From contig NZ_BJDU01000008.1 in the NCBI RefSeq assembly GCF_005405305.1, positions 9,187 to 73,186 of the forward strand: 64,000 nt of DNA. Reading direction: 5' to 3'. Each line of letters starts with the position of its first letter. The stretch's first letter is position 1. Under the pieces are notes generated by a model. The model was not told the origin of the DNA. It was given only the letters and a program-made list of their open reading frames with translations, and made no database searches. Origin of the DNA: Companilactobacillus formosensis (GTDB lineage Bacteria; Bacillota; Bacilli; Lactobacillales; Lactobacillaceae). The translations under genes were made by a program, and so were the position numbers. Shown piece after piece: positions 31,409-31,608 of this stretch.

Positions 31409-31437
31409 TTGACAAAACAATTTTATTAATATATTCT
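31409..31437 (+). promoter_or_regulatory. Promoter of the Cys-leader/cystathionine gamma unit
   Basis: Consensus TTGACA (31409-31414), exactly 17 bases, TATTCT (31432-31437). The transcript would start near 31444, ten bases before the leader peptide's ribosome binding site. Confidence 0.8.
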
Positions 31438-31467
31438 CAGGTCATCAATTACTAGGAGGTCCCAAAC

Positions 31468-31542
31468 ATGATTTTAATCAATGCTCAAAACTTATGTTGC
31501 TGCGGTTCGCATTCTATGCGTGCCGTCTGTTTGAGTATTTAA
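31468..31542 (+). CDS. 24-residue cysteine-rich leader peptide
   Basis: A perfect AGGAGGT (31454-31460) precedes ATG 31468. The peptide contains NLCCCGSHSMR with three consecutive Cys codons (TGT TGC TGC, 31495-31503), a later Cys, and a stop at 31540. It is too short for a folded protein. It sits between a strong promoter and an intrinsic terminator ahead of a sulfur amino acid gene, so it probably works by ribosome stalling when charged tRNA-Cys is scarce. Confidence 0.85.
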   Translation: MILINAQNLCCCGSHSMRAVCLSI

Positions 31543-31608
31543 AATCACAACGGACTACTAATAAAACGCGTAGGGTGCAGATCATTTATTGATTTGCACC
31601 CTTTTTTT
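31509..31608 (+). promoter_or_regulatory. Cysteine-responsive attenuator: competing antiterminator and terminator
   Basis: The terminator pairs GGGTGCA (31573-31579) with TGCACCC (31595-31601), followed by seven T. An alternative helix pairs GCATTCTATGCGT (31509-31521) with ACGCGTAGGGTGC (31566-31578): 13 consecutive pairs counting G-U. It removes the 5' arm of the terminator. A ribosome stalled at the Cys codons would leave 31509-31521 free for antitermination. One finishing the peptide would cover it and let the terminator form. Confidence 0.8.

Follow-up and report, generated by a model that had tools for sequence, protein, structure and literature searches.

In the 64,000 nucleotides of Companilactobacillus formosensis DNA analyzed here (the window, to whose positions all coordinates refer), a gene of the cystathionine gamma-synthase/gamma-lyase family (31633–32775, plus strand) is preceded by a short open reading frame (ORF) in which three cysteine codons stand in a row. 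The question raised by this locus is how such a gene is controlled. An initial annotation had read the region as trp-type attenuation applied to cysteine. This trp-type, cysteine-specific reading is supported by the conservation of the element, by three-way covariation, by gene context and by the published cysteine-dependent expression of a homologous operon; judging from the sequences compared, the element is very probably a ribosome-mediated attenuator of transcription, with charged tRNA-Cys as its signal.

The gene itself is assigned at family level. Its two best matches among the NCBIfam models fall short of the cut-offs: PRK06176 with 607 bits against 642, and PRK07671 with 580 against 594. 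Translation may begin at ATG 31633 or 31636. Its upstream neighbor is a histidine-phosphatase-like gene ending at 31400. Just upstream of the leader there are two similar, adjacent ORFs of this kind, 219 amino acids each (30038–30697 and 30741–31400), which are perhaps a tandem duplication. Elsewhere in the window, GTTTTAGAAGTAAGTCTTTCCATTTACTTAAGAACC repeats at 28211–28640 lie beside cas1-, cas2- and csn2-like ORFs in 26101–28179 (named by eye); together they are probably a type II-A CRISPR locus.

Architecture of the leader

A base-for-base check located every part that the initial annotation had named. A sigma-70-type promoter (TTGACA-17 nt-TATTCT, 31409–31437, 10 of 12 consensus positions) is followed by a Shine-Dalgarno (SD) sequence, AGGAGG, at 31454–31459 and by a leader ORF of 24 codons, MILINAQNLCCCGSHSMRAVCLSI plus TAA, at 31468–31542, both read directly from the sequence. 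The three regulatory cysteine codons, TGT TGC TGC, occupy 31495–31503. Downstream, an intrinsic terminator hairpin of 13 pairs (31572–31602), recognized by a terminator scan and by covariation, precedes a T run that extends to 31608. All of these features, and those that follow, are on the plus strand.

The 13-bp alternative helix of the initial annotation is likewise present, with 13 of 13 standard pairs (G-U counted) between 31509–31521 and 31566–31578. Its 5′ strand (segment 2) lies within the SHSMR codons, and its 3′ strand (segment 3), supported by covariation, overlaps the 5′ arm of the terminator; antiterminator and terminator share 31572–31578 and are hence mutually exclusive. Duplex prediction for L005 adds a loop-proximal extension of the antiterminator at 31525–31534, with 31545–31547 and 31549–31555 as predicted partners. 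The two-helix picture turned out to be incomplete. A third helix, which we call hairpin P (31504–31524; segments 1:2), is indicated by folding and by two-sided changes; it pairs 31504–31512 with 31516–31524, starts directly 3′ of the third cysteine codon and contains the 5′ strand of the antiterminator. The locus combines several of the features that define a trp-type attenuator: an SD and an ORF with cognate codons, a terminator, an exclusive antiterminator, and a 1:2 hairpin beside the codons. In the minimum-energy fold the SD region (31456–31462) also pairs with about 31551–31556, in the segment after the ORF, a predicted pairing that might limit repeat translation of the leader.

The leader RNA (31444–31640) has a folding energy of −59.1 kcal/mol versus −37.6±3.9 kcal/mol for shuffles (z −5.45), and 0 of 200 shuffles were as low. 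When the codons after CCC were shuffled synonymously, the duplex with the 5′ side of the terminator was as strong in 0 of 200 cases. An SD with a short ORF containing two adjacent cysteine codons stands before only one of the 51 window ORFs of at least 150 amino acids, and that one is this leader. Taken alone, neither the promoter (6 promoter-like sites in the window, 7.2 expected) nor the terminator (3 terminator-like sites, 1.7±1.1 expected) exceeds chance in the window. Across the 76 leaders described below, a promoter-like site matching at least 9 of 12 positions occurs at the same place in 71, with a mean match of 9.8 versus a shuffled mean of 8.2.

Conservation in the genus and family

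The second and third cysteine codons, followed by CAY-NNN-ATG-MG, served as a search pattern in the genus (36 genomes). This pattern matched in 23 genomes, and the leader was judged present in 22 of them; the matches L009, L015, L025, L026, L027, L029 and L031 were judged false. A covariance model, R1, was built from 21 genus leaders (L007 and L022 were omitted from alignment A1 as near-copies, and G009:C218, which has no locus, was left out). R1 finds the element in 27 of the 36 genomes, and an ortholog of the window gene (at least 80% identity) occurs in exactly these 27. Among the other nine genomes, seven have only a paralog of 56–58% identity, one (G019) has a 72% CGL homolog without a leader, and one has nothing at that threshold.

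In the family, R1 matched 62 of 397 genomes, spread over 9 of the 40 genera; 42 of the 62 genomes are outside the genus. We assembled a comparison set of 76 distinct leaders, 73 from genomes and three from named plasmids (L103, L104 and L105). A single residue separates the L081 leader from the leader of Limosilactobacillus fermentum DR9 (L105), from which we take the family to be Lactobacillaceae. The initial annotation had asked for conservation of CCC and had counted homologous leaders that lack cysteine codons but keep the terminator as evidence against it. CCC is present in 71 of the 76 leaders and CC in 75, and the remaining leader has CLC; these counts are partly circular, because all of the leaders except L103 and L104 were matched by R1, a model grown from a pattern with two cysteine codons. 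Since TGT and TGC are both used at each of the three positions, it is the cysteine residue rather than the DNA that is kept. A start codon with an SD-like motif was found in 75 of 76 leaders by a loose scan.

The initial annotation had also asked for conservation of HSMR, and as a peptide it is not conserved. The sequence after CCC varies, from CCCGSHSMR in the window to CCCGSHLMR in sister species and CCCGSRLMR in other genera, and HSMR, HLMR, HFMR, RLMR, RQLR and others occur at this position. Where CAT becomes CGT (His to Arg), GGTGC in the terminator arm becomes GGCGC or GACGC. The RNA pair is thereby preserved, and the peptide follows the RNA; conservation of the peptide as the main constraint is ruled out, as HSMR changes while the RNA pairs stay. 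At L088 and L089, the upper part of the terminator is swapped for an unrelated long hairpin, with the element otherwise present.

This variability bears on the idea that the peptide itself is the sensor, either as a nascent or finished cysteine-rich arrest peptide or as a thiol- or metal-binding peptide, acting independently of tRNA-Cys charging on the same RNA. The cysteine run is almost invariant, and with at least three cysteines the peptide could bind metal or be oxidized. However, the residues on both sides of the run vary widely, and arrest peptides usually need specific upstream residues. In L075 (182–350), moreover, the leader ORF ends in TGA directly after CCC, with antiterminator and terminator retained, and the first genes behind the leaders are mostly cysteine genes. 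We consider a peptide sensor improbable and retain tRNA-Cys charging as the probable signal.

A sensor made of RNA is less probable still. If a T-box, an S-box or an unknown cysteine riboswitch controlled the gene, the ORF would be accidental. The genome is indeed rich in T-boxes: a genome-wide search gave 25 matches, 6 of them over the cut-off (the genes behind them were judged from their first 60 residues). One match in the window (47984–48185, minus strand), before an antiporter-like gene, is absent from the window's Rfam scan because its 63.8 bits fall below the Rfam cut-off of 93. None of the genome-wide T-box matches lies at the leader locus, however, and neither the window nor nine related loci contain an Rfam family at gathering score. 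Within the ORF, moreover, the cysteine codons are conserved best, and most of their variation is synonymous; this speaks against an accidental ORF.

Genes behind the leaders

The first genes of at least 100 codons behind the 76 leaders were classed by similarity to three references and the rest by eye. CBS/CysK-like genes account for 41 and CGL-like genes for 26; the others are amino-acid ABC permeases (4), MetA-like genes (2), one unclear case (L066) and two contig ends. Thus, the element is linked to cysteine genes. One permease gene (L068) starts 573 nt downstream of its leader. The L062 permease and the L087 MetA-like protein were tested by their first 90 residues only; the L062 fragment scored over the cut-off for a permease domain and below it for the cystine permease model, and for both fragments all full-length models except TIGR01726 were below cut-off. 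Directly behind the L066 leader there is no intact CBS- or CGL-like reading frame, and the gene there may have decayed.

Covariation of the three helices

In the genus alignment (21 rows), 99.3% of antiterminator cells are paired, and there are 15 two-sided cells versus 3.7 in shuffles. The genus alone yields 2 antiterminator pairs with two-sided changes, a number reached by 56 of 500 shuffles and so unexceptional. Column 26, in the coding strand, covaries with columns 101 and 136, which belong to the two arms of the terminator: the combination is C-G-C in 8 of the 21 rows, U-A-U in 7 and, with a wobble pair, U-G-C in 6.

Across the family, 95.1% of antiterminator cells are paired, and 10 of the 13 pairs show two-sided changes. 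A structure of 17 pairs (the antiterminator plus four upper terminator pairs) has 169 two-sided cells versus 46.4±10.5 in shuffles and at most 24 in slid controls, in an alignment fitted to the model and with shuffles that ignore relatedness. An alignment-free comparison gave a mean of −27.2 kcal/mol for each leader's own strands versus −18.2±0.46 for permuted partners, with 0 of 2000 permutations as low; 75 of 76 leaders pair their own strands better than their swap mean. Synonymous-codon shuffles weakened the antiterminator to −16.5 from the real −28.4, and in 71 of 74 leaders at most 10 of 200 shuffles were as strong.

Hairpin P, which has up to nine pairs beginning on the base after the third cysteine codon, was aligned separately. 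Alignment A3 omits 12 leaders with indels (L081, L105, L093, L092, L094, L096, L099, L097, L103, L104, L090 and L084), and the remaining 64 collapse to 49 distinct rows. In these 49 ungapped leaders 85.7% of cells are paired, and two-sided changes occur in 7 of 9 pairs (28 cells versus 8.7 in shuffles). The pair +10/+28, counted from the first cysteine codon and lying outside the 13-pair strand, changes from G-C to A-U in 7 rows and to U-A in 1, across five genera. All nine pairs are intact in L008, and one pair is broken in 30 of the 49 leaders. The synonymous-codon test is weaker for P than for the antiterminator: at most 10 of 200 shuffles were as strong in 29 of 75 leaders, and for the window leader the figure was 16 of 200.

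These patterns also bear on whether the palindrome could be a protein-bound operator, with the leader ORF incidental. In favor of this, the palindrome is conserved and stands before cystathionine genes, and an operator for lactobacilli was proposed from an earlier motif search (Liu et al. 2012, as cited in the portion of PMC6004538 consulted). However, a T run follows the palindrome, the sequences of its arms change from genus to genus, and its 5′ arm covaries both with the 3′ arm and with the ORF strand about 50–60 nt upstream. An operator is thus very unlikely, and we read the palindrome as the terminator of the attenuator.

A CBS-anchored survey of the order

Applied to the whole order, R1 matched 12 of 395 genomes, none of them outside the family to which the window belongs. 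Because R1 does not reach other families, and because a model derived from a cysteine pattern is circular, we anchored a survey on the CBS protein instead. A search of the order with this protein identified 48 of 246 genomes at E 1e-80. An SD-like motif and a short ORF with adjacent cysteine codons were present in 41 of 44 scanned CBS upstream regions, 34 of them with CCC, compared with 0 of 44 in reverse complements and an average of 0.8 of 44 in mononucleotide shuffles. The four remaining CBS loci, from the window's family, also have leaders (L003, L055, L089 and L093). In total, 45 of 48 CBS loci have a leader with adjacent cysteine codons, in 20 of 21 genera and in six families as labelled; the three loci without one all belong to a single genus (g54). 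CCC leaders are also present at L192 and L216, two loci close to contig ends that the first scan passed over. Enterococcus faecalis, E. hermanniensis, Marinilactibacillus psychrotolerans and Ligilactobacillus apodemi are among the named cases. The remark of the initial annotation that ribosome-mediated attenuation is uncommon in Firmicutes may hold generally (published cases concern His and Leu), but before the CBS operon of Lactobacillales leaders with adjacent cysteine codons predominate.

Among non-R1 leaders, a leader's own strands beat permuted ones in 30 of the 31 that could be parsed (−15.9 versus −12.5±0.47; 0 of 2000 as low); the L205 leader is present and lies outside this 31-leader test. 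Ten of 30 non-R1 antiterminators are weak, at −7 to −12 kcal/mol, and of Enterococcus type. Further cysteine-leader types were seen in other Lactobacillales families (CCCLCC..HSCRQ at L199, CCCTNVQFISHA at L206 and CCCCMVYKNSI at L190), each with its own terminator sequence. A contig search covering at least 80 loci, mostly of distant relatives, flagged 7 among the matches listed: of these, L110, L111 and L113 were used as positives, and L121, L139, L159 and L175 were taken as chance. Two other loci from Enterococcus, L158 and L165 (perhaps CysK, at 42% identity), went unflagged among the matches listed. A blastn search of the leader against plasmids gave no match.

A proposed mechanism

We propose that RNA would start near 31444 and that a ribosome would translate the leader. 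If Cys-tRNA ran short, the ribosome would stall with its A site on the cysteine codons at 31495–31503, touching or covering the 5′ arm of hairpin P; from its footprint size, we take a ribosome stalled there to sit on this arm or its edge. The stretch 31509–31534, left free, could then pair with 31545–31578 during transcription and take the terminator 5′ arm, and with the antiterminator formed the polymerase would read on into the trans-sulfuration gene. If cysteine were plentiful, the ribosome would reach the stop codon at 31540, stand between the antiterminator strands and cover their loop-proximal part; the terminator would form, and transcription would end near 31608. Hairpin P may help to hold the antiterminator strand when no ribosome stalls. 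P, antiterminator and terminator would correspond to the 1:2, 2:3 and 3:4 helices of a trp-type attenuator.

In the initial annotation, finishing the peptide was said to cover the antiterminator strand. A ribosome with the stop codon 31540–31542 in its A site presumably covers about 31525–31552, by footprint size. For this reason only the loop-proximal extension, 31525–31534, would be covered; 31509–31521 would lie behind the ribosome, and the statement needs to be narrowed to that extent.

We folded the ribosome states of the 76 leaders both on RNA made before the terminator 3′ arm and on complete RNA. In the pre-terminator RNA, a stall at the first cysteine codon gave an antiterminator probability of 0.96 (above 0.5 in 76 of 76 leaders) and a stall at the second gave 0.80 (71 of 76). 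At the third codon the probability was 0.34 (16 of 76), so folding agrees with the claim that stalling frees the antiterminator strand for the first two codons but not for the third. When the ribosome stood at the stop codon and the strands on either side of it were free to pair, the mean was 0.78 (above 0.5 in 61 of 76; window leader 1.0), and in ribosome-free RNA it was 0.61, with 0.02 for the window leader, whose hairpin P reached 0.97. Hairpin P exceeded 0.5 in 20 of the 76 leaders when no ribosome was present, and in 5 when it lay behind a ribosome at the stop codon (window 0.00); these low frequencies speak against P alone making the off state. In complete RNA, the terminator won in every modelled ribosome state, with mean probabilities of 0.83–0.93. 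Equilibrium folding did not discriminate between ribosome states or reproduce the off state, and we set it aside as proof of a switch. Because static folding misses the off state, the decision would have to be kinetic, and we infer that the outcome depends on timing and on the ribosome keeping the two strands apart.

The cysK2-ctl1-cysE2 operon of Lacticaseibacillus paracasei

The leader MTQSMFNAINCCCRTTRFWRCSAC, or a near form of it, precedes cysK2-ctl1-cysE2 on two Lacticaseibacillus paracasei plasmids, with an antiterminator of −25.6 kcal/mol and a terminator. In FAM18149, these three genes were up by log2 2.9–3.2 (about 8-fold) in cysteine-deficient versus methionine-deficient medium, according to the portion of PMC6004538 consulted. 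The same portion of this 2018 paper reports high 5′-UTR coverage and a terminator, finds no T-box or S-box, and calls the control mechanism of the operon “yet to be discovered” (PMC6004538). Its terminator motif, given as AAGGGCGCGAAA-N16-TTTCGCGCCCTT, is present in plasmid pLC2W (L103), where a CCC leader and an antiterminator that matches the motif precede it. No leader peptide is named in the consulted part of PMC6004538; the CCC leader was seen here on the two plasmids.

We think it likely that order-wide, previously undescribed cysteine-codon attenuators, with the antiterminator strand inside the ORF, are the standard control of the cbs-cgl-cysE (methionine-to-cysteine) operon of Lactobacillales and of some amino-acid importers and MetA-like genes, instead of a T-box or S-box, and that they explain the L. 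paracasei cysK2-ctl1-cysE2 operon. This offers a mechanism that can be tested for the cysteine response of a dairy bacterium, which had been measured but left open, and it bears on the flavor-relevant sulfur metabolism of lactic acid bacteria. It also points to leader-peptide attenuation, considered rare in Firmicutes, as the usual way of controlling one pathway in six families of one order, coexisting in the window's genome with many T-boxes. In the codons behind the cysteine run, where His becomes Arg alongside compensating terminator changes, RNA structure would dictate the peptide.

Comparison with known systems

Among the matches listed in the open literature, judged by titles and the beginnings of abstracts, we found no report of a cysteine leader peptide in Lactobacillales. 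Leader peptides of other amino acids occur in Firmicutes, where T-boxes are usual: a His leader before hisZ/hisS* (PMC2965389) and, in S. aureus, a Leu leader before branched-chain genes (PMC5794164). The parts of these two reports covered here name no cysteine case, and term searches of the accessible text of PMC6200037, PMC12174637 and PMC12785664 found no relevant passage.

The window leader has an SD and an intrinsic terminator and so differs from the Rho-dependent mycobacterial polycysteine type. Experimental work exists on those mycobacterial attenuators, in which the ORF is leaderless and has no intrinsic terminator. As far as the consulted part of PMC1262725 describes them, the cysteine leader peptides of Actinobacteria likewise place runs of cysteine codons before cysteine genes, including Bifidobacterium longum cbs, but no conserved terminator hairpin was found among them, and Rho-dependent termination was proposed. 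By the description in the part of PMC8632094 consulted, the uORFC-8-2 motif before cysS in Rhodobacterales also has a uORF with tandem cysteine codons, two stems and a U run, and ribosome-mediated attenuation was proposed; it belongs to Alphaproteobacteria and to a tRNA synthetase gene.

Comparative sequence evidence shows the present element to be real and conserved, and it is very probably a cysteine-specific variant of trp-type attenuation. The enterobacterial trp, his and leu attenuators consist of a promoter, an SD, a short ORF with cognate codons, exclusive helices 1:2, 2:3 and 3:4, and an intrinsic terminator upstream of the first gene. In the trp leader of E. coli, the stop codon precedes strand 2. 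In contrast, the antiterminator strand here lies inside the ORF, before the stop codon, and therefore the ribosome would run over it. Otherwise the same kinds of parts are present, with cysteine as the amino acid and Lactobacillales as the host order.
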